64,000 bases of DNA from Deferribacterales bacterium Deferri_01. Lineage in GTDB: Bacteria; Chrysiogenota; Deferribacteres; Deferribacterales; Geovibrionaceae. Made by a program: the position numbers and the translations under genes. Positions 5,153 through 64,000 of this stretch are shown piece by piece. The notes beneath the pieces were generated by a model, which ran no database searches, was not told where the DNA came from, and saw only the letters and a program-made list of their open reading frames with translations. Location of the stretch: contig LUZY01000010.1 of NCBI GenBank assembly GCA_001603805.1, forward strand, positions 62,001 through 126,000, read 5' to 3'. Position 1 is the stretch's first letter. Every line of letters starts with the position of its first letter.

Positions 5153-5521
5153 TCAGACTTTACTCTTCTTGATCACGGCGGAAATTTCGTTCAGAAGCGA
5201 GTCCAGATCAGAAGGCGACTTAACCCAGTATCCGTCTGCCAGCCATGTGGAGAAGTCGTCCTGATAAGCGCTGTACGCCGTCGCAAGTATAGTTTTGACA
5301 CCTTTATACTTTTTGGTGATTTCCTGAAGAATGTCAATCCCGCTCTCACCTTTAAGTTTTATATCGAGAAGAATAACATCAATTTTCTCTTTCTCAAGAA
5401 CCTTAAAGCACTCGGCACTGTTTGAGGCTTCAAAAACCTTGTAACCGTTGTCTTCAAGCTCTGTGCGGTAAAGCAGCCTTATTTCCGACTCATCGTCGAC
5501 AACCAATACCGAATATGCCAT
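5153..5521 (-). CDS. Single-domain response regulator (CheY-like receiver)
   Basis: The 122-residue protein is only a receiver domain. The acidic pocket is in VVDDESE, the phospho-acceptor Asp is in VILLDIKLKG near residue 52, the switch Thr is in ILATAYSAY, and the conserved Lys is in VKSPSDL. There is no output domain, so it probably relays phosphate to or from another protein. It ends 100 bp before the nucleotidyltransferase fusion on the same strand. That gap is too long to show an operon but leaves cotranscription possible. No cognate kinase is adjacent. Confidence 0.9.
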   Translation of the reverse strand: MAYSVLVVDDESEIRLLYRTELEDNGYKVFEASNSAECFKVLEKEKIDVILLDIKLKGESGIDILQEITKKYKGVKTILATAYSAYQDDFSTWLADGYWVKSPSDLDSLLNEISAVIKKSKV

Positions 5522-5536
5522 ATGTACCTCCTACTT

Positions 5537-5820
5537 AATAACTAAAAAAACTACTTCCTGTGCCTACTTATGATAGTTCTTAAAAACATACGTCCTGTAG
5601 TTTTTAATCACTCGCACCTTGCGGAGCAACACTCCTTAGTGCTCTCACTACGTTGACGTTCCTCACATACGTTGCGGTACGCACTGCGTGGGCACATCCA
5701 TGTGCCTATTTATGACAGTTCTAAAAACATACGTCCTGTAGTTTTTGCCTACTTGTTCGCAAGCCGCACAGCAGGCCTTCGCTACGCACGGCGTAGACAC
5801 TTCCTGTGTCTACCTTAATA
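5537..5820 (+). repeat. Modular hairpin repeat array 1 (degenerate copies)
   Basis: The 581-bp gap between the receiver gene and rpe holds divergent copies of the hairpin repeat family. Visible stems are AAAAAC/GTTTTT around a CGTCCTG loop at 5582-5605 and again at 5723-5746, GGCACAT-CC-ATGTGCC at 5691-5706, and GTAGACAC/GTGTCTAC with loop TTCCT at 5793-5813. The linker TTCGCTACGCACGGCGT is at 5778-5794, and a decayed form TTGCGGTACGCACTGCGT is just upstream of 5691. The remaining 5821-6102 shows no gene I can support; the short open frame across it is made of repeat sequence. Confidence 0.75.
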
Positions 5821-6102: not shown

Positions 6103-6741
6103 CTACTTGAGAGATTTTATTGCGTCAGCGTATGAAGATGCACCAAAAACATAGCTTCCCGCCACGACAGCACCACAACCTGCGTCAGCAAGAATATTTA
6201 CATTTTTGTCTGTAACTCCGCCGTCAACTTCTATTATGAGATCAGGATTAAGAGCTTGTTTCATTTCAGCAAGTTTTGCCACCTTGCTGACTGAGCTTTC
6301 GATAAACTTCTGACCGCCGAATCCCGGGTTCACAGACATAATTAAAACCATATCAAGATACGGGAGAATTTCCTCAAGGGCAGAAACCGGAGTATGAGGA
6401 TTAAGAGACACACCCGCCTTACAGCCGTGAACTTTGATCTCGCTCACTGTTCTGTGAAGGTGTGTGCATGCTTCATAATGCACAGTGATAAGGTTTGAGC
6501 CTGCATCAGCGAAGTCTTTGATATATCTGTCAGGATCGATGATCATAAGATGCACGTCAAAAGGCTTCCGGGTGGTTTTGCGAAGATGTTTCACCACAGG
6601 TGCGCCGAAGGTGATATTAGGCACAAATACGCCGTCCATGACATCAAGGTGGATCCAATCCGCCCCGCCGTCGTCAATGGCTTTTATCTCTTCTGCCAGT
6701 CTCGAAAAATCTGCGCTTAATATAGAAGGTGCAACTATCAT
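6103..6741 (-). CDS. rpe: Ribulose-phosphate 3-epimerase
   Basis: The 212-residue protein matches the ribulose-5-phosphate epimerase TIM barrel along its full length. It opens with APSILSADF. The metal-binding and catalytic segments are HLDVMDGVFVPNI, FDVHLMI, MSVNPGFGGQKF and the final VDGGVTDKN with its catalytic Asp. It interconverts D-ribulose-5-phosphate and D-xylulose-5-phosphate in the pentose-phosphate pathway, in the cytoplasm. It is transcribed divergently from the lytic transglycosylase gene, with 108 bp between the two starts. There is no evidence of an operon on the downstream side, where the hairpin repeats lie. Confidence 0.96.
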   Translation of the reverse strand: MIVAPSILSADFSRLAEEIKAIDDGGADWIHLDVMDGVFVPNITFGAPVVKHLRKTTRKPFDVHLMIIDPDRYIKDFADAGSNLITVHYEACTHLHRTVSEIKVHGCKAGVSLNPHTPVSALEEILPYLDMVLIMSVNPGFGGQKFIESSVSKVAKLAEMKQALNPDLIIEVDGGVTDKNVNILADAGCGAVVAGSYVFGASSYADAIKSLK

Positions 6742-16450: not shown

Positions 16451-17779
16451 TTAAGCTTCTTTCTTTTCGCCTCTTTGTCTTATGAACAGCTTTATGGGAA
16501 TTCCTTCAAACCCGAAGTACTCCCTTATTATATTCACAACAAATCGTTGGTAAGAAAAATGCACCGAATCAGCATAGTTTGCGAAGATAACAAATTGCGG
16601 CGGGCACGCCGCCGCCTGTGTCATGAAGTAGAGTTTCAGTCTTCTTCCCTTCACAACCGGAGGCTGATGGCGCTCGAGTGCAGCCTGAAGAACACGGTTC
16701 GCTTCTCCGGTTCCAACCCTTTTGGTATATTCCTTATAAAGCCCTTTAGCGGCCTCAAATATTTTATAGACATTCTTGCCGGACATTGCAGAAGCAAATA
16801 TAACAGGCGGGTTGTTAAGGAACTGGAGTTTATATTCTATATCATCTCTCAGAGCCTTGGCTGCCTCATCCTTATTTTCCACTGCGTCCCATTTGTTTAC
16901 TACGATGATCACCGGTCTGCCCGCTTCCCATGCGTCTGCTATGACCTTTACGTCACGCTCGTTCAGTCCTTCCAGCCCGTCAATAAGGCATACTGCTATA
17001 TCTGCACGGGAGACTGCGTCTTCCCAGCGGTAATAGCCGTATTTCTCTATTCTGTCCTTGAACATTACGGATTTCTTTCTGATTCCCGCCGTGTCAATAA
17101 GAACATACTTCTCACTGCCGTGTTCAAAAAGAGTATCAACAGCATCCCTTGTGGTACCGGGGATATCGGTCACTATCAGCCTTTCCTCGCCAAGCCAGCG
17201 GTTAATCATGCTGGACTTGCCCACGTTAGGGCGTCCGGTGACGATGAGCTTTATGCGCCCTTCATAGCTGAAGTCTTCCTCTTTTTCATCTTCCGGCAGA
17301 CGTGATATTATCTCATCCATAAGATCACCGACATTACGTCCGTGTGTTGCACTTATGGGAAAAACTTTTTCAACACCAAGCGAATAGAAATCGAGAGCAA
17401 GCATATCTGCCGATTCAGAGTCGATCTTATTTACAGCGACCATAAAGTCCTTCCCGCTTTCACGGAGAAGTCCGCAGACTATTTCATCAAGGGGGTGAAC
17501 ACCCTCACGCCCGTCAACCATGAGTATAAAGAAATCTGCCTCTTCAAGAGAATACATGAACTGACGCTGCATCTCTTTTTTTACAATCTCTTCCTTCATG
17601 TCATATCCGGCGGTGTCCACAACACGGAAACGCCTTCCGAGCCATTCGGCGGTAAATTCTATTCTGTCACGGGTTACGCCCGCCATGTCGTCCACGATGG
17701 CGATTCTTTGCCCCGCCAGTCTGTTAAAAAGTGTGGACTTGCCTACGTTCGGGCGTCCTATTATTCCGATTTTTTTCAT
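16451..17779 (-). CDS. der: Ribosome-associated GTPase Der (EngA)
   Basis: Der has two tandem GTPase domains and a C-terminal KH-like domain, all seen here in 442 residues. The first domain has GRPNVGKSTL, DTAGYD and NKID. The second, near residue 180, has GRPNVGKSSM, DTAGIRKK and NKWD. The C-terminal domain from about residue 350 ends in a basic tail. Der acts in 50S ribosomal subunit assembly. It is the last gene before a terminator; on its upstream side the hairpin repeat array 2 separates it from gltX, and the 5' end of the transcript may run through that array. Confidence 0.97.
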   Translation of the reverse strand: MKKIGIIGRPNVGKSTLFNRLAGQRIAIVDDMAGVTRDRIEFTAEWLGRRFRVVDTAGYDMKEEIVKKEMQRQFMYSLEEADFFILMVDGREGVHPLDEIVCGLLRESGKDFMVAVNKIDSESADMLALDFYSLGVEKVFPISATHGRNVGDLMDEIISRLPEDEKEEDFSYEGRIKLIVTGRPNVGKSSMINRWLGEERLIVTDIPGTTRDAVDTLFEHGSEKYVLIDTAGIRKKSVMFKDRIEKYGYYRWEDAVSRADIAVCLIDGLEGLNERDVKVIADAWEAGRPVIIVVNKWDAVENKDEAAKALRDDIEYKLQFLNNPPVIFASAMSGKNVYKIFEAAKGLYKEYTKRVGTGEANRVLQAALERHQPPVVKGRRLKLYFMTQAAACPPQFVIFANYADSVHFSYQRFVVNIIREYFGFEGIPIKLFIRQRGEKKEA

Positions 17780-17796
17780 TCCGATTCCTATCTTAA

Positions 17797-18315
17797 TCTA
17801 TAGTTCTGAAACGGTACATCCTGTCCGTTTCATCACACGCTCGCGGCGGTCTGAAACCGCCTTCGCTGCGCACGGCGCAACATCTTATCTTTATAATCCA
17901 AAATTTATCATCCTGAAAATTTTGGATACACGCTCGCGGCAGGCTGAACCTGCCTTCGCTGCGCACGGCGCAACTCCATCCGTGGAGTTGTATATCTATA
18001 TTAATTTTCAGTTTTAATCTATAGTTCTGAAACGGTACATCCTGTCCGTTTCATCACACGCTCGCGGCAGGCTGAACCTGCCTTCGCTGCGCACGGCGCA
18101 ACATCTTATCTTTATAATCCAAAATTTATCGTCCTGAAAATTTTGGATACACGCTCGCGGCGGTCTGAAACCGCCTTCGCTGCGCACGGCGCAACATCTT
18201 ATCTTTATAATCCAAAATTTATCGTCCTGAAAATTTTGGATACACGCTCGCGGCGGTCTGAAACCGCCTTCGCTGCGCACGGCGCAACTCCATCCATGGA
18301 GTTGTGTATATGGGT
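17797..18315 (+). repeat. Modular hairpin repeat array 2 (five core units)
   Basis: The 557-bp gap between der and gltX is filled by five cores at 17835-17880, 17928-17974, 18056-18102, 18149-18195 and 18242-18288. Each reads ACACGCTCGC, a hairpin, then CTTCGCTGCGCACGGCGCAAC. The hairpin is GGCGGT-CTGAA-ACCGCC in units 1, 4 and 5 and GGCAGG-CTGAA-CCTGCC in units 2 and 3, a paired change that keeps the stem. Between cores lie second-type hairpins with TCC loops: GAAACGG/CCGTTTC, CCAAAATTT/AAATTTTGG, and CAACTCCA/TGGAGTTG at 17971-17990 and 18285-18304. The open frames across it are repeat translations, not genes. Confidence 0.92.
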
Positions 18316-18336: not shown

Positions 18337-19779
18337 TTAGGCTGTGATTTCTATAGCAGCGTCCAGCCTTCTCAGCAGCTCATCCACAGGCATCAGTGTT
18401 GCCATCTTATCGATTTCCGGTCCTTTAACAGAACCTGATATTCCCACCCTGATCGCCATGAAGAGCGGTTTGCCCTTTGTGCCTGTTTCCTGCTGAACAG
18501 ATTTGGGTATGCTCTTGTAATCCTCTTCGCTTATATATCCGCTGAAAACGGAGATCTTTTCACGAAATGCCTTAAGTACGGCAGGCGTAGTCTCAAGCTT
18601 AAGATACTCCATGGCCTCTTCATCCGGTGTCTGGTACTGAAAGTAAACCTTCATAACTTCCGGAGCATCACCTAAAAGCTCCATCTTGCTGGCTATGGAG
18701 GCTATCATTTTAACATAGATTTCCCTCTCAAGCCTGTCAGCAGGAAGACCGGCTTCAATGAGGAAAGGCATGCAGAGATCTGCAAGCTCCTCCGGTGTTT
18801 TCATGCGTATGTACTGACCGTTCAACCACTTAAGCTTACCAAAGTCAAAAACTGCTGCGCTTGTGGAAACACGGTCAAGGCTGAATGATTTGATAAGCTC
18901 GTCTTTGGAGAGAATCTCCCTCTCCTTTTCATCAGACCAGCTGAGAAAAGCCAGAAAGTTGAACAGCGCATCGTTCAGGTATCCCTGTGAGCGGAACTGT
19001 TCGATACTTGTATTGCCGTGACGTTTGGAAAGCTTTGATCTGTCCTCACCCAGAATCATGGGGATATGGACAAATTCAGGGCGCTCAAATCCCAGAGCAT
19101 CAAATATCAATGCCTGCTTCGGAGTATTGCTCAGGTGATCGTCACCTCTGATCACCTGACTGATTTTCATCAGGGCATCATCAATCACAACCACATAGTT
19201 GTAAACAGGTACACCATCAGGACGCACAATGATAAAATCACCGAAAACGCCTGTTTCAAAATCTATTTCACCTTTTATCTTATCAGAAACGTGTACAACA
19301 TCTTTCTCAACTTTAAAACGGATTGCATAAGGTGCGCCGGATGCTTCAAGTTCAGCCTTCTGCTCTGCTGAAAGATGTCTGCATTTGCCGCTGTAAACAG
19401 GCTGACGGTTTTCGATACGGGCTTTTTCCCTCTCGGCGTCAAGCTCTTCCTTGCTGCACCAGCATTTATAAGCATGCCCCTTGTCGAGGAGTTCATCTGT
19501 ATATTTCTTATATATATCAAATCTTTCTGACTGCCTATAAGGGCCGTGTTCACCGCCCTTCACAGGACCCTCATCCCAGTCCATAAGAAGCCATTTCATA
19601 TCTTCGTAAATAAGCTCCTCACTAGCAAGGGTGGAGCGGTCAAAATCCGTGTCCTCTATCCTAAGAATGAAAGTGCCCCCTGTGCTGCGTGCATAAAGGT
19701 AATTGAAAAGAGCCGTTCTGGCATTTCCAACGTGAATGTGCCCTGTGGGGCTGGGTGCGAATCTCACTCTAACTGACAT
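18337..19779 (-). CDS. gltX: Glutamyl-tRNA synthetase
   Basis: A class I aminoacyl-tRNA synthetase of 480 residues. The HIGH-type motif is HIHVGN within RFAPSPTGHIHVGNARTA. The KMSKS-type motif is SKLSKRHG near residue 245. The Cys-rich insert around CWCSKEELDAER is the zinc-binding region found in many GluRS proteins. It charges tRNA-Glu, or both tRNA-Glu and tRNA-Gln if the organism uses the transamidation route. I prefer the ATG at 19779 over 19788, because AGGAG lies ten bases before 19779 but only one base before 19788. The gene ends 22 bp before hairpin repeat array 2. Confidence 0.96.
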   Translation of the reverse strand: MSVRVRFAPSPTGHIHVGNARTALFNYLYARSTGGTFILRIEDTDFDRSTLASEELIYEDMKWLLMDWDEGPVKGGEHGPYRQSERFDIYKKYTDELLDKGHAYKCWCSKEELDAEREKARIENRQPVYSGKCRHLSAEQKAELEASGAPYAIRFKVEKDVVHVSDKIKGEIDFETGVFGDFIIVRPDGVPVYNYVVVIDDALMKISQVIRGDDHLSNTPKQALIFDALGFERPEFVHIPMILGEDRSKLSKRHGNTSIEQFRSQGYLNDALFNFLAFLSWSDEKEREILSKDELIKSFSLDRVSTSAAVFDFGKLKWLNGQYIRMKTPEELADLCMPFLIEAGLPADRLEREIYVKMIASIASKMELLGDAPEVMKVYFQYQTPDEEAMEYLKLETTPAVLKAFREKISVFSGYISEEDYKSIPKSVQQETGTKGKPLFMAIRVGISGSVKGPEIDKMATLMPVDELLRRLDAAIEITA

Positions 19780-21814: not shown

Positions 21815-21851
21815 AGCTTACATGTATCTGCCGACTGCAAGTGCCACGGCT
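21815..21851. repeat. 37-bp direct repeat, left copy (copy of the DAHP synthase 3' end)
   Basis: These 37 bases are identical to 22078-22114, which hold the stop codon and last eleven codons of the DAHP synthase gene plus one extra base (AGCTTACATGTATCTGCCGA and onward). The copy lies outside the gene on the far side of hairpin array 3, so the array is bracketed by a direct repeat. Confidence 0.9.
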
Positions 21852-21859
21852 AATCTGTC

Positions 21860-22060
21860 TTTACAATAAAAAATTCTCCTTCCATGGGAATTTTTTATAC
21901 ACGCTCACGCCGTGATAAACACGGCTTCGCTACGCACGGCGTGCCCCCATCTGTCTTTACAATAAAAAATTCTCCCTCCATGGGAATTTTTTATACACGC
22001 TCGCGCCGTGATAAACACGGCTTCGCTACGCACGGCGTGCCCCCATCCATGGGGGCAAAG
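21860..22060 (+). repeat. Modular hairpin repeat array 3 (two core units)
   Basis: Two cores at 21899-21942 and 21995-22038 have the pattern ACACGCTC-CG, hairpin GCCGTG-ATAAA-CACGGC, then TTCGCTACGCACGGCGT. The stem sequence differs from array 2 but the flanking linkers are the same. Each core is preceded by an AAAAATTC/GAATTTTT hairpin whose loop contains CTTCCATG or CTCCATG. The array ends with GCCCCCAT-CC-ATGGGGGC near 22038-22056. The segments CTGTCTTTACAATAAAAAATTC recur in both units, about 96 bp apart. There is no gene in this 315-bp interval. Confidence 0.9.
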
Positions 22061-22077: not shown

Positions 22078-22114
22078 AGCTTACATGTATCTGCCGACTG
22101 CAAGTGCCACGGCT
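22078..22114. repeat. 37-bp direct repeat, right copy (in DAHP synthase 3' end)
   Basis: This is the genuine copy overlapping the stop codon of the DAHP synthase gene, identical to 21815-21851. The 226 bp between the two copies is entirely hairpin array 3. Confidence 0.9.
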
Positions 22115-23097
22115 CTCATTTCACCCATAAGCTGAATGAAGTGTTCGGGGCTGATGGTCTGTGCTGCATCGCTCCATGCTTTATCAGGTTCGGGATGAAC
22201 TTCTATTATCACACCGTCTGCGCCAACAGCTACAGCAGCCTTGGAAAGAGCGGAAACATACTGCCTGTGACCGCCGGAATGGCTGGGATCTATGATTATC
22301 GGAAGATGGGACTTATCCTTAACAACAGGAACACAGCTTATATCAAGTGTATTTCTTGTTGCGGTCTCAAATGTTCTTATACCTCTTTCACAAAGGATAA
22401 CTCTCTGGTTTCCTTCACTTAATATATATTCTGCCGCCATAAGGAATTCTTCTATTGTTGTGGACATTCCTCTTTTCAGCAGGACAGGTTTATCCGTTTG
22501 CCCCAGCATGGTGAGGAGAGCGAAGTTCTGTATGTTGCGTGCGCCTACCTGAAACATATCTGTGTATTTGTACACAAGTTCAACATTTCTCGGATTTACA
22601 ACCTCCGTACAAATAGGAAGTCCTGTTTCCTGCCTTGCCGCTGCAAGGTATTTCAGCCCCTCTTCGCCATGTCCCTGGAAGGCATATGGGCTTGTTCTGG
22701 GCTTGAAAGCACCGCCACGGAGTATTTTTGCACCTGCCGCTTTGACCATCTGTGCGGAACGGACTATCTGCTCTTCTGATTCCACAGAGCATGGACCTGC
22801 GATTATGGGAATTTCTCCGCCGCCGAATTTTACTCCGCATACGTCAACTATTGATGTTTCAGGTTTAACTTCTTTACTGGCGAGCTTGTAAGGTTTGCTG
22901 ATAGGAACTATGTTATCGACACCGGGCATTTCAGAAATAACGCATACACTGTCCTTTTTGACATTAGCGCCCACAAGTCCGATAACGTTTCTTTCCTTTC
23001 CGAAGATGACGTGAGGACTGAAACCAAGCTGTTCCGCTCTTGCCACCACGTCATTAAGATGTTGTTCTTCTGCGTCCATCCTCATTACTACTATCAT
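22081..23097 (-). CDS. aroF: 3-deoxy-7-phosphoheptulonate (DAHP) synthase
   Basis: A 338-residue type I-beta DAHP synthase. It condenses phosphoenolpyruvate and erythrose-4-phosphate, the first step of the shikimate pathway. Residues 1-70 form the ferredoxin-like regulatory domain seen in the Thermotoga enzyme, which confers feedback inhibition by Tyr/Phe. The catalytic barrel follows: PIIAGPCSVES, GGAFKPRTSPYAFQG, GARNIQNF, LLKRGM and IIDPSHSGGHR, including the metal-binding Cys and His. Upstream lie a Phe/Tyr-rich leader peptide and an intrinsic terminator, so expression should respond to aminoacyl-tRNA-Phe/Tyr supply. The ribosome site CGGAGG lies just before the ATG. Its 3' end is duplicated beyond the hairpin array. 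Confidence 0.95.
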   Translation of the reverse strand: MIVVMRMDAEEQHLNDVVARAEQLGFSPHVIFGKERNVIGLVGANVKKDSVCVISEMPGVDNIVPISKPYKLASKEVKPETSIVDVCGVKFGGGEIPIIAGPCSVESEEQIVRSAQMVKAAGAKILRGGAFKPRTSPYAFQGHGEEGLKYLAAARQETGLPICTEVVNPRNVELVYKYTDMFQVGARNIQNFALLTMLGQTDKPVLLKRGMSTTIEEFLMAAEYILSEGNQRVILCERGIRTFETATRNTLDISCVPVVKDKSHLPIIIDPSHSGGHRQYVSALSKAAVAVGADGVIIEVHPEPDKAWSDAAQTISPEHFIQLMGEMRAVALAVGRYM

Positions 23098-45802: not shown

Positions 45803-47659
45803 ATGTTTAGAGCGATACTTTTAACCCTGCCGTTAATGATACTTATGTTTTCCGCAAATGCCTTCACCGCATCAGCCAGAGATGCGCAGTCCTGTACCGT
45901 GCCTGAATGCCATGCAGGGATAGAAGACACTTCCGAAAACCATAAGATAGCCTGTATTGAGTGCCACGAAGGGAATCCGAACACAAAAGATAAAGACGCT
46001 GCCCACAAGGATATGCTGGGCGGGAGAAACCCGTCAGACCCATCCGTATGGGACAAAGGCTGCGGAAAATGCCACCAGTACCAGCATGACAGAGTGAACA
46101 CCACCCTCATGTACACCAATGCCGGAATGATCAAAAACGCTCAGCAGGCATGGGATGATTACAAAGGGCAGCATTACAGCACCGCAGGCTCAAAAGGTGT
46201 TGATGCGGAAGGTAATTCCGTGGAGTTTCCTTCTGTAACCGAGCTGGAGGAACTGTCCGGCGAGCTTTACCGTAAATTTTGTTCAACATGCCATATTGGC
46301 TTTGACAAACTCATCGGCTATCGTTCCCACCATTCCTCAGGGTGTTCAGCCTGCCATTTCAGCCATAGTATAGACGGCGCATACACTGGCGGCGACAAAA
46401 CTATTCAGGGCAAAAAACCTTATCCTGAAAAGCACGTAATTAATCCGCTGCCGGAGGATGATGTCTGTCTCACATGCCACAACCGCAGCGGACGTATAGC
46501 TCTCTCCTACAGAGGCGAATACGACGGCAATAACTCACTCGTACCCACTAACGGCGGCATCCCCGGACCGGAGCTAATGGACGGAATAAGAAGCATACGC
46601 CACATGCAGGCGGACATTCACAAGGAATACGGCATGGACTGCATAGACTGCCACACATCAAGGGATATGATGGGTGACGGCTACCTCTACGAGAACATGT
46701 TCCAGCAGCTTGAAGTAACCTGCGAGGACTGCCACGGTACGGAAAATGAACTTCCCAAAACAGCTAAAATAACCAAAGAGAGTGATTCTCCCCTGCGTGA
46801 GTCTCGGCATTACGCAGTCAAGGCAAAATTCGGCGATGAGATGGTGCTTACCTCAAAAGGGCGCATGTATTCAAATGTAAAAAAAGAAGGGGACAAGTTT
46901 GTTCTTTACACCAAGAGAAAAGGGAAACGCCTTGAAATAAAAACAGTTACTGATACAGCAGATCACATGGTTTACGGTCATGAAAAAATGGAATGCTACA
47001 CATGCCACTCCAAAACCGTTGTTCAGTGCTACGGATGCCACACAACCTATGACAAGTCCCAGACGATGATGGACTGGGTGAAAATGGAGGAAACGAAGGG
47101 GCTTTTCAGTGAAAAGGAGGACTTCCGCTCGTTTTTCCCCTTTCCCATGGGTATAAACCAGAAAGGAAAAATAGCTCCTGTTACCCCCGGATGTCAGACT
47201 TTCCTTACCGTACTTGATGAAAATGAAAATGTTGTTCTTAAAGAACATATCTTCAACTACAAAGGGGGCAAAAAATTCAAATTTGCCCCGTTCTTCGGGC
47301 ACAACACAGGCAAAAAAGCCATAACCTGCCGCAAGTGCCACGCAGACCTTATGTTTGCAGGTTTCGGACAGGGGCTTGTATCTGTCACAAAGAAAAATAT
47401 AGACAGCTCATACATGTGCGAGCAGTGTGACAAACCGCTGGATTCGCTTTATACGCTGAAAAACGGCAGAATGTCCGTGACGTCTGACATAGTGCGGGAT
47501 AAATCCAGAGTGTTCACCCCTGATGAAATAAGCAGGATATTTGATGCAAACCGCTGCATAATCTGCCACAACAAGGGTGATAAAAAAATCTACGGGAAAA
47601 AGATAGACTATGAAAAAATACTTTCCGATTCTGTGCATAAGCCTCTTCTTGCTGACTAG
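45803..47659 (+). CDS. extK: Periplasmic dodecaheme c-type cytochrome (ExtK/L-like)
   Basis: The 618-residue precursor has a signal peptide (MFRAILLTLPLMILMFSANAF). Eleven CxxCH heme motifs are present: CIECH, CGKCH, CSTCH, CSACH, CLTCH, CIDCH, CEDCH, CYTCH, CYGCH, CRKCH and CIICH. The first motif, CTVPECH, is a CX4CH site as in some cytochromes c3, giving 12 likely hemes. A thirteenth site reads CEQCD, with Asp replacing the heme-ligating His. Pairs such as CYTCHSKTVVQCYGCH resemble multiheme respiratory cytochromes. It likely moves electrons across the periplasm to the porin. Its end overlaps the next cytochrome gene by 50 bases. Confidence 0.82.
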   Translation: MFRAILLTLPLMILMFSANAFTASARDAQSCTVPECHAGIEDTSENHKIACIECHEGNPNTKDKDAAHKDMLGGRNPSDPSVWDKGCGKCHQYQHDRVNTTLMYTNAGMIKNAQQAWDDYKGQHYSTAGSKGVDAEGNSVEFPSVTELEELSGELYRKFCSTCHIGFDKLIGYRSHHSSGCSACHFSHSIDGAYTGGDKTIQGKKPYPEKHVINPLPEDDVCLTCHNRSGRIALSYRGEYDGNNSLVPTNGGIPGPELMDGIRSIRHMQADIHKEYGMDCIDCHTSRDMMGDGYLYENMFQQLEVTCEDCHGTENELPKTAKITKESDSPLRESRHYAVKAKFGDEMVLTSKGRMYSNVKKEGDKFVLYTKRKGKRLEIKTVTDTADHMVYGHEKMECYTCHSKTVVQCYGCHTTYDKSQTMMDWVKMEETKGLFSEKEDFRSFFPFPMGINQKGKIAPVTPGCQTFLTVLDENENVVLKEHIFNYKGGKKFKFAPFFGHNTGKKAITCRKCHADLMFAGFGQGLVSVTKKNIDSSYMCEQCDKPLDSLYTLKNGRMSVTSDIVRDKSRVFTPDEISRIFDANRCIICHNKGDKKIYGKKIDYEKILSDSVHKPLLAD

Positions 47660-48872
47660 CGCAGCATACGGCGAGGTCATTGACACACAAGGCAAAACCT
47701 GTACCGACTGTCACAAGGTCACAATCACTGACGCCCATAAGAGTGCATCCTGCGAATCATGCCATATAAAAAATGACACCCACTACGCAAAAGCAGCCGA
47801 ATTCAGAACCGGCGCCAAAGGCTGCCTCACCTGTCACAAAGGCTATGAGGGCATGCTTAACAGCCCCATGCACAAACGCACGGCGGAGCAGAAGTTCGCA
47901 CATGAGTCTTACGGCACAAAGGACCCTGCCTTTTACGCCAAAAACTGCTCATCCTGCCATGTTAACTCCTGCACAGACTGCCACAAGGGAAAAAGCGTGC
48001 ATAACATTGTGCGCCCCAAAACAGACACATGCACCACATGCCACAGCGGCTACTACACAGGCATAGAGTATAAAGGGCTTGGGGTTCGTGACGATCACGA
48101 AAGATACGGCAGAGGCATAGAATACAACGATGAATACTATGCAAAAATGCTTCCCGATATACACCATGAAAAAGGAATGGAATGTTCTGCATGCCATTCA
48201 ATGAAAAGCCTTGCAGAAGGCAAGCCCTTCTCCAAAACATGCACAGACTGCCACAAGGTGAACAAAAATTCATCCATAGAGCATTCAATACCGGAGCATA
48301 TGGAAAAAATGGAATGCTACACATGCCACTCGGCATGGGCTGCACAGGAGTACGGCACATTCTGGATACGATTCCGCAATACCGAATACGACGACTATTT
48401 CCGCTGGGTAAAAACCCCGAATAATGAATATGCCAAAAGCAGCCACACCAAGGACTATACACCGCCTCCCATTGCAATAAATTCACGGGGCAAGTATTCA
48501 CCCGTGCGCCCGCAGTATGTTGCTTTTTTTACATTTGTGGTCGGCGAAGGAGCAAAAGGAAAAGAGAACGAAATGCTCGCCAATAATTATAAAACTCTTT
48601 TCCCGCATACAGTAAGGCGTGAAGTTGTTATGTGCGAGAGCTGCCATAAAAATAACAAGCGCCTGATGAGAGAGACAGAGGAAGAGCGGATTTTTGACCT
48701 GAGAAAAGACGGTCTGGAGATTGACAGCTTCCACAACGGAAAAGATTTCAAAGTGACAAACGGACGCTTTATAAATGATGAAGAATACCGGATAATTACA
48801 GATGATGATCCCCGCTATCAAAAGCTTTCCGTAAAAAAATGGAAGCAGATCAAAGATATATTTAAAAAATAA
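47610..48872 (+). CDS. extL: Periplasmic decaheme c-type cytochrome (ExtL-like)
   Basis: The 420-residue precursor starts [21 protein letters not shown]. Ten CxxCH motifs are visible: CTDCH, CESCH, CLTCH, CSSCH, CTDCH, CTTCH, CSACH, CTDCH, CYTCH and CESCH. The first eight crowd the N-terminal 240 residues. The C-terminal 150 residues resemble the corresponding part of the upstream cytochrome (TPPPIAINSRGKYSPVRPQ against MGINQKGKIAPVTPG), so the two genes may be distant paralogues. It starts inside the upstream gene (50-base overlap), so translation is coupled. It is the last member of the electron-transfer cluster. Confidence 0.82.
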   Translation: MKKYFPILCISLFLLTSAAYGEVIDTQGKTCTDCHKVTITDAHKSASCESCHIKNDTHYAKAAEFRTGAKGCLTCHKGYEGMLNSPMHKRTAEQKFAHESYGTKDPAFYAKNCSSCHVNSCTDCHKGKSVHNIVRPKTDTCTTCHSGYYTGIEYKGLGVRDDHERYGRGIEYNDEYYAKMLPDIHHEKGMECSACHSMKSLAEGKPFSKTCTDCHKVNKNSSIEHSIPEHMEKMECYTCHSAWAAQEYGTFWIRFRNTEYDDYFRWVKTPNNEYAKSSHTKDYTPPPIAINSRGKYSPVRPQYVAFFTFVVGEGAKGKENEMLANNYKTLFPHTVRREVVMCESCHKNNKRLMRETEEERIFDLRKDGLEIDSFHNGKDFKVTNGRFINDEEYRIITDDDPRYQKLSVKKWKQIKDIFKK

Positions 48873-60069: not shown

Positions 60070-61287
60070 ATGTCAAAAGTGCTTATAATCGGAGCAGGCG
60101 GCGTAGGGAATGTTGTTGTTAAAAAGTGTGCCCAGCATCCGGACGTATTCAGTGAAATTTTCCTTGCCAGCAGAACAAAGGAAAAATGTGACGCCATAGC
60201 TGCGGAAGTTAAGAGCATGTACGGCGTTGACGTTAAGACCTATCAGGTAGATGCAGACGTGGTGAGCGACATAGTCCGTGTTATCAAAGAATGCAGACCC
60301 GAACTTGTGCTTAATGTTGCCCTGCCCTATCAGGATCTCGCAATAATGGACGCATGCCTTGAAACAGGCGTAAACTACCTTGACACTGCCAACTATGAAC
60401 CCAAGGACGAAGCCAAGTTTGAATATTCATGGCAGTGGGCTTATCAGGATAAATTTAAAGAGAAAGGGCTTATGGCTGTTCTGGGATGCGGCTTTGACCC
60501 CGGTGTAACAAACATCTTCTGCGCCTACGCACAGAAGCACCTTTACGACAGCATACGCACTATCGACATACTGGACTGCAACGCAGGAGACCACGGGCAT
60601 CCATTTGCCACAAACTTCAACCCCGAAATCAACATCCGTGAAGTAACGCAGGTTGTGCGCCACTGGAAAGACGGAAAATGGGTTGAAACTCCCGCAATAC
60701 TTGACGACAGCTGCGTTCACTTCACATTCGACTACCCCGAAGCCGGACCCAAGGAGAGCTATCTTCTCTTCCACGAGGAGATGGAATCGCTTGTGAAGAA
60801 CATAAAAGGGCTCGAGCGTATCCGTTTCTGGATGACATTCTCCCAGAACTACATCACTCACCTCAAAGTGCTTGAAAACGTCGGTATGACACGCATTGAC
60901 GAAGTGGACTTCAACGGTTGCAAGGTGATACCCCTTCAGTTTCTGAAAGCACTTCTCCCCGATCCGGGCAGCCTCGGCACAAACTACAAAGGGCTTGCCG
61001 TTATCGGCTGCGTTTTTGACGGTGAAAAAGACGGTAAAAAAATAAAGAAATACATATACAACATATGCGACCACGCCGAAGCATACAAAGAGGTTCAGGC
61101 ACAGGCGGTGTCATATACCACAGGTGTTCCCGCTATGATCGGCGCCATGATGATGCTTAAGGGCGTATGGAAAGGTGAAGGGGTGTTCAACGTTGAGCAG
61201 CTTGACCCCGACATGTTTATGGATGAGCTTAACAAATGCGGTCTGCCATGGCAGGTTGTGGACTTTGAAGGTCAGCTCCCCGAATGA
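60070..61287 (+). CDS. Carboxynorspermidine/carboxyspermidine dehydrogenase
   Basis: The 405-residue protein belongs to the saccharopine dehydrogenase family and starts MSKVLIIGAGGVGNVVVKKC, with a GxGGVG NAD(P)-binding motif. VLGCGFDPGVTNIFCAYAQ and FNPEINIREVTQ follow the pattern of the CASDH branch. It reductively condenses aspartate semialdehyde with putrescine or diaminopropane to give carboxyspermidine or carboxynorspermidine. The next gene encodes the matching decarboxylase, overlapping by four bases, which decides this identity over lysine metabolism. The ATG at 60070 follows GGAG by seven bases; a TTG at 60064 is disfavoured. Confidence 0.9.
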   Translation: MSKVLIIGAGGVGNVVVKKCAQHPDVFSEIFLASRTKEKCDAIAAEVKSMYGVDVKTYQVDADVVSDIVRVIKECRPELVLNVALPYQDLAIMDACLETGVNYLDTANYEPKDEAKFEYSWQWAYQDKFKEKGLMAVLGCGFDPGVTNIFCAYAQKHLYDSIRTIDILDCNAGDHGHPFATNFNPEINIREVTQVVRHWKDGKWVETPAILDDSCVHFTFDYPEAGPKESYLLFHEEMESLVKNIKGLERIRFWMTFSQNYITHLKVLENVGMTRIDEVDFNGCKVIPLQFLKALLPDPGSLGTNYKGLAVIGCVFDGEKDGKKIKKYIYNICDHAEAYKEVQAQAVSYTTGVPAMIGAMMMLKGVWKGEGVFNVEQLDPDMFMDELNKCGLPWQVVDFEGQLPE

Positions 61288-62450
61288 TAAATAATCAGGC
61301 ACTGAAAGACTTTCCCAGAGAGATAACAGACAGGGCGAAGACGCCCTGCTACCTTATCAGCGAGGATGTGATCAGGCGCAACTGCGAAATCCTCGACTCT
61401 GTGCAGAAACGCACCGGAGCCAAGATTATGCTTGCTCTCAAGGCGTTTGCTCTGCCTAAGGTATTTCCGCTTATCTCGTCCTATCTCCACGGAGTATGCG
61501 CCAGCGGACCCATCGAAGCGCAGCTCGGCTATGAGGAGTTTAAGAGGGAAACACATACATATTCGCCGGCCTTCACAGACTCGCAGATGGAACGGACTAT
61601 TAAGTTTTCCGACCATATAGTCTTTAACTCAATCAGCCAGTGGCATCTCCATAGGGATAAAATAAAGGCAGGCGGTAAGCATATAGAAATCGGTCTCCGT
61701 GTAAATCCCGGACATGCGGAGGTCGAGGTTGAGCTTTATAATCCATGCCTCCCCGGTTCACGCTTCGGAGTGAGCCCGCAGGACTTGGGGGGAGTTGATC
61801 TCACAGGAATAGACGGTCTGCATTTCCATGCAATGTGTGAGCAGAATTCAGATGTTCTGGAAAGGGTTCTTGCTTCCTTTGAAAAACGTTTCGGGCACCT
61901 CATCCCCCAGATGAAATGGATTAACTTCGGCGGCGGACACCATATAACAAGGGAAGATTATGACCTTGAACTCCTCTGTCGTCTGATTAATGATTTCAGG
62001 AAGAAATATAATAATATTCAGGTTTACCTTGAGCCGGGCGAAGCGGTTGTGCTGAATGCAGGGGTTTTTGTCACTTCCGTGCTGGACACTATCCATAACG
62101 GAATGGACATAGCCGTATGTGACTGTTCGGCGGAAACCCATATGCCCGATGTGCTTGCCATGCCGTACAGACCCAAACTCATCGGCGAGCCTGAAACTGG
62201 GAAATATACTTACCGCCTCGGCGGAATCTCCTGCCTTTCAGGAGATGTCATAGGCGACTATAAATTCAATGAGCCGCTGAAAAGAGGTGACAGACTTGTT
62301 TTCACTGATATGGCTCTGTATTCGTTTGTGAAAAACACAAACTTCAACGGCGTGGAGCTGCCGTCACTCATTACATTCAGTCTGGAAAAAGGCACATTTG
62401 AAGTTGTCAGAAAATTTGGCTACGAAGATTATAAAAACAGAATAAGCTGA
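61284..62450 (+). CDS. nspC: Carboxynorspermidine decarboxylase
   Basis: The 388-residue fold-type III PLP enzyme is related to ornithine and diaminopimelate decarboxylases. The cofactor Lys is K53 in TGAKIMLALKAFALP. HFHAMCEQNSD and WINFGGGHHITREDYD form the phosphate-binding region, and CDCSAETHMPD contains the active-site Cys. It removes CO2 from carboxynorspermidine or carboxyspermidine to yield norspermidine or spermidine, completing the S-adenosylmethionine-independent route. The start overlaps the dehydrogenase stop (ATGA). A poly-GAA/GAAGAA tract follows the stop, then hairpin array 4. Confidence 0.93.
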   Translation: MINNQALKDFPREITDRAKTPCYLISEDVIRRNCEILDSVQKRTGAKIMLALKAFALPKVFPLISSYLHGVCASGPIEAQLGYEEFKRETHTYSPAFTDSQMERTIKFSDHIVFNSISQWHLHRDKIKAGGKHIEIGLRVNPGHAEVEVELYNPCLPGSRFGVSPQDLGGVDLTGIDGLHFHAMCEQNSDVLERVLASFEKRFGHLIPQMKWINFGGGHHITREDYDLELLCRLINDFRKKYNNIQVYLEPGEAVVLNAGVFVTSVLDTIHNGMDIAVCDCSAETHMPDVLAMPYRPKLIGEPETGKYTYRLGGISCLSGDVIGDYKFNEPLKRGDRLVFTDMALYSFVKNTNFNGVELPSLITFSLEKGTFEVVRKFGYEDYKNRIS

Positions 62451-62461
62451 AAGAAGAAGAA

Positions 62462-62734
62462 GAAGAAGCCCGACAGGACGTACGGGCGTGGAACATTCAA
62501 AATAACGTAATCTATACTTATGTTCTCATGGATAGGAACACGCCGTGCGGAGCGAAGACGAACGAAGTTCGACGCGAGCGGTTAGGCAGCCCGACAGGAC
62601 GTACGGGCGTGGAATACTCAAAACAACGTAATCTATTCTTATGTTCCCACGGATGGGAACACGCCGTGCGGAGCGAAGGATTGCTCTGCAATCCGCGAGC
62701 GGTTAAGGCAGCCCGACAGGACGTACGGGCTGCC
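62462..62734 (-). repeat. Modular hairpin repeat array 4 (two core units, inverted orientation)
   Basis: Two cores at 62540-62580 and 62661-62701 are reverse-strand copies of the family. Read on the minus strand they give CGCTCGCG, hairpin, CTTCGCTCCGCACGGCG. The hairpins are CGAAC-TTC-GTTCG (62559-62571) and GGATTGC-AGA-GCAATCC (62678-62694), unrelated in sequence to each other and to arrays 2 and 3. Between them, second-type hairpins GCCCG-TACGTCCTGT-CGGGC occur at 62468-62487, 62589-62608 and, with a nine-base stem, 62707-62734. TGTTCCCA-TCCG-TGGGAACA lies near 62642-62661. The two about 120-bp units are near-copies of each other. Confidence 0.9.
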
Positions 62735-62741
62735 AATATAA

Positions 62742-64000
62742 TTAGAAATCCATAGTCATAGACAACCAGTAAGATCTTCCCGGTTCATTATAGGTATATG
62801 CATTTGCCTTTTCAGCACCGTCTGCGGATGCTGAAGCGGAAGCAGAATTACCTTTACGGTGTATCTGCTTATCAAAAAGGTTGTTTATACCCGCTCTGAA
62901 CTTTACATTTTCGATGATCTGATACTGTGCGCTGATTCCCACAAGAGCATAGGGGTCAAGAGTATCCTTCTCAATTTCCCTTTCAGTTCTGATCTCCAGA
63001 GTGGGAGTTTCCTGCTTGCCGTAAAGAGTGGCATTAACACCGAGAGAAAGCTTGTCTGTGGCTCTCCAGTCGATGAAAGTGTTTACAGTATATTCAGGCA
63101 CTATACTGAGAGGCTGACCTGTTCTTTTCAGTTCAGACTCAATCATATATGTTACGTTTGTGTTGAAATCGACATCCTTGCCGAGAGCAACAAACACATT
63201 ACCTTCAACACCTTCAATTACAGCGTCTCCGGCATTTTCCCATTTGTAAACATCTCTGTTGCCGGAAACAGTGGCAACACTTGTTTTGCCTGCGAATACC
63301 TTGTTCTCATAATCGTTATGGAAATAGGTTGCACTTGCCCTGAAACTGTCAGAATCATACGCAAGTCCGATCTCTTTGTTTATGCTTGTTTCGGGGTCAA
63401 GATCATCGTTACCCTGAAGGTAGCACCCGCCGCCCAGTGAGCTTGAACCACCGTAGCATCCTGTTCCCCTGCTGTAAAGCAGGTAGTTGGGGTTGCCTTG
63501 ATAAAGGTTCGGCGCCTTATATGCTTTGGCGATACCGCCTTTTATCGTCCAGTTTTCGTTTATGTCATAGTATGCGTTCAGACTGGGACTTACGTTTGTG
63601 CCGAATTTTTCATGCTCGTCAATGCGGACTCCCGGAGTAACGGTCACGCCGTGTCCGAGGTAGATATTGTCCTCTACATAGAAAGCGTAGCTGTAAACCT
63701 CTTCGTCGGTTTTACCGGGTGTAAAGCCTTCAAGGTCAATATTAAGCCATGTCATCGCAGATGAGTTTCGGAGAGAACCTTTATCGTCAAGCTGCTCGTT
63801 CAGATATTCTGCACCAACGGTAACTGTCTGTGCGAAGCCGAAAATATTAAGAGGAATATCCGCCTGAACAGAAGTGAGGAAGCTGTTAAGCTCTGACTCC
63901 ACCATTCCGGGGTCATAGTTGGGGTTATCTGTAATCTCGCCTTCAAGACCGCCGGCAAGACCTTCATTCATACGGGTATTTGTGGTGCGGTCATAGCTCA
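62742..64000 (-). CDS. TonB-dependent siderophore receptor, FepA-like, C-terminal part
   Basis: The window holds the C-terminal about 419 residues of an outer-membrane TonB-dependent receptor; the frame is open to the window edge, so the plug domain lies outside. The sequence is strongly similar to enterobactin receptor FepA/PfeA as I recall it: KAYKAPNLYQGNPNYLLYSR, CYLQGNDDLDPETSINKEIGL, LSIVPEYTVNTFIDW, AGINNLFDKQIHRKGN and AYTYNEPGRSYWLSM. It ends in a terminal Phe (MTMDF). The family imports ferric catecholate siderophores with TonB energy. An Ala-Ser repeat (SASASASADG) in a late extracellular loop is unusual. No iron-regulation site can be seen because the 5' end is missing. Confidence 0.88.
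   Translation of the reverse strand, partial: SYDRTTNTRMNEGLAGGLEGEITDNPNYDPGMVESELNSFLTSVQADIPLNIFGFAQTVTVGAEYLNEQLDDKGSLRNSSAMTWLNIDLEGFTPGKTDEEVYSYAFYVEDNIYLGHGVTVTPGVRIDEHEKFGTNVSPSLNAYYDINENWTIKGGIAKAYKAPNLYQGNPNYLLYSRGTGCYGGSSSLGGGCYLQGNDDLDPETSINKEIGLAYDSDSFRASATYFHNDYENKVFAGKTSVATVSGNRDVYKWENAGDAVIEGVEGNVFVALGKDVDFNTNVTYMIESELKRTGQPLSIVPEYTVNTFIDWRATDKLSLGVNATLYGKQETPTLEIRTEREIEKDTLDPYALVGISAQYQIIENVKFRAGINNLFDKQIHRKGNSASASASADGAEKANAYTYNEPGRSYWLSMTMDF

Follow-up and report, generated by a model that had tools for sequence, protein, structure and literature searches.

A dispersed RNA element with paired A(N)GGA-loop hairpins, a probable intercistronic CsrA-binding element, in Deferribacterales

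We describe a family of structured repeats dispersed between the genes of a member of the Deferribacterales, which we interpret, with a probability of about 0.65 and from sequence comparisons, as a previously undescribed RNA element, intercistronic and spreading, that binds CsrA. The fold of the RNA is near certain; its transcription, binding of CsrA, regulatory effect, and mechanism of spread are features that we infer. The pattern as a whole is most simply explained by selection for paired A(N)GGA hairpins in a structured RNA, with the repeats serving as putative dispersed CsrA sites at operon joints.

The unit is about 100 nt long and consists, in sense order, of a GGA-loop hairpin (C), a GCGNAGCGA-type linker, a variable hairpin (A), a GAGCG linker, and a second GGA-loop hairpin (B). 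In the stretch of 64,000 nucleotides that we analyzed (the window), the most prominent example is a five-unit array on the minus strand (17795 to 18304; units at 17795-17892, 17888-17990, 18016-18113, 18109-18206, and 18202-18304), which lies between gltX (stop at 18337) and der (start at 17779) and is sense with both genes. Its sense linkers are CGCCGTGCGCAGCGAAG between C and A and GCGAGCGTGT between A and B, and a complete hairpin C is missing in three of the five units. The full unit used for folding (18202 to 18304, minus strand; 109.9 bits) comprises C at 18285-18304 (CAACUCCAUGGAUGGAGUUG), A at 18252-18268, and B at about 18210-18241, with the hairpin B loop CAGGACG, and its sense strand has a minimum free energy of -38 kcal/mol (z = -3.8). 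Hairpin B is about 12 bp long with a one-base bulge, and hairpin C is about 8 bp long. Folding of both window units on the sense strand displays the GGA loops; the opposite strand also folds well, as palindromes should, and folding energy therefore does not choose the strand.

An earlier note on this DNA, which read the other strand, had reported five cores at 17797-18315 with the linkers ACACGCTCGC and CTTCGCTGCGCACGGCG, inner stems GGCGGT/ACCGCC in three cores and GGCAGG/CCTGCC in two, and further stems GCCGTG/CACGGC (21.9 kb) and GGATTGC/GCAATCC and CGAAC/GTTCG (both at 62.6 kb); all of these are present. The linkers, said to be identical across the window, proved near-identical instead: position 8 of the long linker varies among A, C, G, and T, and the 62.6-kb copies read TAACCGCTCGC. 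A second hairpin type with variable stems and a TCC loop does exist as described but is really two hairpins: in that orientation, B precedes the short linker and C follows the long one. The functional strand is the opposite of the one described, and the TCC loops are GGA in the sense RNA.

A covariance model built from 50 loci (R1) finds 11 units in the window, grouped in four arrays that are all sense relative to genes. A two-unit array (21858 to 22057, minus strand) lies 3' of the DAHP synthase gene (22081-23097, minus strand), with a convergent MCP gene on the opposite side; it is flanked by a 37-bp direct repeat (21815-21851) that is 100% identical to the native copy at 22078-22114, which contains the DAHP synthase stop codon. 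Two diverged units (5568 to 5812, minus strand) are sense between the minus-strand open reading frames (ORFs) 6103-6741 and 5153-5521, and a two-unit array (62521 to 62744), sense on the plus strand, lies 3' of ORF 61284-62450 and converges on ORF 62742-63971. A related repeat that has the same TCC/GGA hairpins but different linkers (CTCTCACTACGTT...TGCGGTACGCACTGCGTGGG) is seen at 5625-5695 in the window and at the loci L074, L077, and L080; it adjoins or sits inside arrays of the element and forms a putative second subfamily.

Allowing up to two mismatches, the long linker is matched 114 times across the 2.85-Mb genome, against 0 for the reversed control pattern. Eight matches of the short linker were counted, a number that none of 100 shuffles reached. 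R1 recovers about 146 units (E ≤ 0.1), which bears out the proposal of a dispersed modular family, and a congener with a complete genome (G002) holds far more copies, with 307 linker matches. Most loci have their own set of three stems, which tandem copies within a locus mostly share; identical A hairpins recur at many loci.

The claim that the stems change as pairs in a maintained structure is upheld by several comparisons. Among units picked by their linkers only, hairpin A is paired in 94.8% of cells versus 50.9% (maximum, 59.8%) once whole arms are randomly shuffled between loci; this is the cleaner test for hairpin A, as many of the 50 R1 loci were chosen with hairpins visible. For the three hairpins together, 89.3% of cells are paired versus 53.8% after shuffling, with covariation scores of 0.832 and 0.219, respectively, and sliding the partner by one column leaves a score of ≤0.27. 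All 20 of 20 stem pairs change on both sides somewhere. Distant relatives show 93.5% of cells paired versus 64.3% shuffled in an alignment that was fitted to the model. Both G.U (G.T) and A.C are very rare in the covarying stems (alignment A1, hairpins A to C), so that wobble asymmetry favors neither strand. A slowly drifting RNA stem should contain more G.U than is seen, and the scarcity suggests that arms are often replaced in a single event. Orthologous loci in the congener differ in the same manner: a C arm reads CAGUUUC/GAAACUG versus CAGCUUC/GAAGCUG with GGA kept, a hairpin B pair is T-A versus A-T, and whole A hairpins are exchanged while B and C stay. Covariation is strong. Simple duplication, which the earlier note had set aside, also contributes: at many loci the element is tandemly repeated together with its flank, and the stems hardly differ within an array. 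The family represents a rare natural experiment, in which one fold has been rewritten many times per genome and gained or lost between species whose DNA is about 80% identical.

The orientation of the repeats relative to genes distinguishes the strands. Of 162 pooled loci, a few of which occur in two sets, 128 are sense and just 3' of a stop codon (pooled P = 2.5 × 10−14), and 34 are antisense or between divergent genes. With ORFs called mechanically, the gene on the hairpin C side runs opposite to the orientation read in the earlier note at 52 of 62 loci (about ten of them from relatives), at 50 of 67 loci in 1.2 Mb of the congener G002, and at 26 of 33 in distant genera. Between co-oriented genes, 60 elements are sense versus 18 antisense; among the other gene pairs of G002, 22 elements are convergent versus 5 divergent, against a background of 73 versus 117. 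We take the GGA-loop strand to be the likely RNA strand from this orientation. Of the two kinds of structure previously entertained, RNA or extruded DNA, gene position and orientation thus point to RNA, and extruded DNA is not favored. The elements frequently sit directly behind stop codons, with hairpin B often close to the ribosome-binding site of the next gene. By eye, no U runs follow them, so they do not appear to be ordinary terminators.

The sense-strand loops of the two hairpins (CAGGAUG, CAGGACG, or CAUGGAUG) contain the A(N)GGA motif of CsrA/RsmA sites. They fit the published CsrA site, ruACArGGAugu with GGA in the loop (PMC5694010), and the ANGGA found in 324 of 328 Campylobacter jejuni CsrA targets, for the most part in the loops of hairpins and also at sites between the genes of polycistrons (PMC4894983). 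A(N)GGA lies in the predicted loop of hairpins C and B, respectively, in 75 of 81 and 76 of 86 units of this genome (G000), 62 of 75 and 75 of 85 in G002, and 29 of 31 and 29 of 31 in distant relatives; as a control, GGA, a looser criterion, lies in 9.5% of random 21-mer loops. A full unit therefore carries two A(N)GGA-loop hairpins on the strand taken, from gene orientation, as transcribed. The csrA gene of this genome is intact and follows fliW. Within the order, csrA is present in 23 of 23 element-bearing genomes, and the 9 genomes without csrA, some of which are incomplete, have no element (P = 0.0015 without phylogenetic correction, the co-occurrence being clustered by clade); fourteen csrA-positive genomes are without detectable elements. 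A weak copy, apparently antisense, lies at the 3' end of csrA in the congener (G002:C1:452793-452891), where G000 has none.

By R1 together with a second model built from diverged copies (R2), 23 of the 51 phylum genomes carry the element; these fall into three families of Deferribacterales. The bearers include 11 of 12 genomes of the family of the window (taken to be the one with Denitrovibrio, Geovibrionaceae in NCBI), all 10 of 10 genomes of one genus in another family (7 to 69 matches each), and single genomes elsewhere. Distant relatives have different linkers and keep the order GGA hairpin, GCG..AGCGA, hairpin A, GAGCG, and GGA hairpin; the other families retain the A(N)GGA loops and the sense orientation despite the different linkers. 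Exact linker matches in two other members of the phylum (G048 and G050) lie in ordinary sequence without a flanking element and are attributable to chance, as is one in G039. The exact pattern has no match in the viral contigs searched, and no plasmid matched; carriage by phages or plasmids was rejected on this basis.

Spread within the genus is suggested by loci with both flanks anchored in the two genomes (80% identity over 677 kb): of 43 such G002 loci, the element is in both genomes at 13 and the site is empty in G000 at 30, presence in G000 being scored by R1 matches, which badly decayed copies may escape. In G002, some elements start immediately behind a TAA stop. Direct repeats of 20 to 60 bp border several single elements, and in arrays the element recurs together with its flank. 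At G002:C1:1130046-1130146, the ribosome-binding site, ATG, and some 45 nt of the gene downstream are present in a second copy that flanks the element, which is thereby preceded by a short decoy reading frame. These empty sites, the duplicated flanks in an X-E-X arrangement, and the tandem arrays would also suit a MITE- or REP-like DNA element, whose hairpins would extrude in single-stranded DNA and be recognized by shape by a transposase, the sense bias arising because transcription ends are preferred targets and the GGA loops serving as recognition letters; the very few G.U pairs and the recurrence of the same A hairpins fit this as well. We consider it unlikely, as Y1_Tnp is absent from G000, G001, and G002 and RVT_1 from G001 and the complete G002 (one is present in G000), so that no transposase, a kind of protein that the earlier note had proposed to look for, tracks the repeat. 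A Y1/RAYT or IS200/605 origin is rejected for the genus. Reverse transcription is rejected on the absence of RVT_1 from the complete G002, for all its linker matches. Moreover, flank duplications vary in length between about 20 and more than 60 bp, with many loci having none, and the loops and orientation persist across families with different linkers. MITEs end in inverted repeats that do not vary in sequence and have short target duplications of constant size, whereas here the stems differ between loci and the flank duplications are long, variable, or absent; we therefore did not assign the elements to the MITEs.

Still less probable is a generic stabilizer or processing element of mRNA 3' ends (REP/BIME-like), in which strong hairpins would block exonucleases and the loop letters would be incidental. 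The stable fold, the location directly 3' of stop codons, and the excess between convergent genes agree with such a role, but it leaves aside why A(N)GGA is kept across the order while the stems are rewritten, and the lack of visible U runs sets the elements apart from ordinary terminators. Template switching (quasipalindrome correction) could perfect the arms, making covariation the product of a mutational process rather than selection; the joint rarity of G.U and A.C mismatches and the replacement of entire hairpins at orthologous loci are what it would produce. As the sole cause it is very improbable, since fixed loops, conserved linkers, sense bias, and order-wide persistence go unexplained, though it may act together with selection.

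In the preferred CsrA-binding interpretation, an RNA of about 100 nt would be made within mRNAs, and right after the stop codon its two hairpins, separated by the conserved linkers and the variable central hairpin, would present A(N)GGA loops that a CsrA dimer could bind together. Locally, this would control translation or stability at operon joints; globally, hundreds of transcribed sites would titrate CsrA, making them a distributed counterpart to CsrB in an organism with FliW-CsrA. For binding, only the fold and loops would matter, and the stems could thus drift by paired change and whole-hairpin replacement, with new loci arising by copying events that frequently duplicate the flanks. CsrA binding does not account for the conserved plan of hairpin A and the linkers. 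Homologs of CsrB-type sponge small RNAs are missing in many csrA-bearing bacteria (PMC4894983), and hundreds of dispersed CsrA-type sites would offer another means of buffering or wiring this regulator. A fuller version, which we put somewhat short of even odds, is that a phylum-specific, still-active RNA element places paired CsrA sites at hundreds of operon joints, that the CsrA buffer is this dispersed, fast-evolving repeat rather than a dedicated small RNA, and that its spread rewrites stems and duplicates ribosome-binding sites.

The repeat letters of CsrB are CAGGA(U/C/A)G, and CsrB/CsrC and RsmX/Y/Z, like the element, have several hairpins with such or ANGGA loops; however, they are stand-alone small RNAs of Gammaproteobacteria, whereas the element is scattered over hundreds of operon joints and has a core of linkers and hairpin A. 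The TwoAYGGAY RNA (RF01731) and the reverse strand of Bacillaceae-1 (RF01690) have two GGA-loop hairpins and are proposed to bind CsrA (PMC4333381). The element shares these paired hairpins but occurs in different taxa. To our knowledge, neither RNA is dispersed as the element is. The arrays have no Rfam match at the gathering score, and when the 17797-18315 array was searched permissively, at E up to 10, neither CsrB/RsmZ families nor RF01731 or RF01690 were returned. No similar repeat in Deferribacteres turned up in a literature search; the earlier note likewise knew of no described family with this pattern. REP/BIME elements with RAYT are intergenic, palindromic, clustered, and frequent at gene 3' ends; the element likewise forms clustered intergenic palindromes at gene 3' ends but is found in a genus without Y1 transposase and has three variable stems and GGA loops. 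Mitochondrial double-hairpin elements are mobile organellar hairpins and resemble the element in their variable stems and fixed loops; we know of no GGA loops in them and of no bearing on CsrA. Separately, CxxCH-like motifs (TGCACAGACTGCCACAAGG) recur in internal repeats at 46600-48350 of the window, as would fit a multihaem cytochrome gene.
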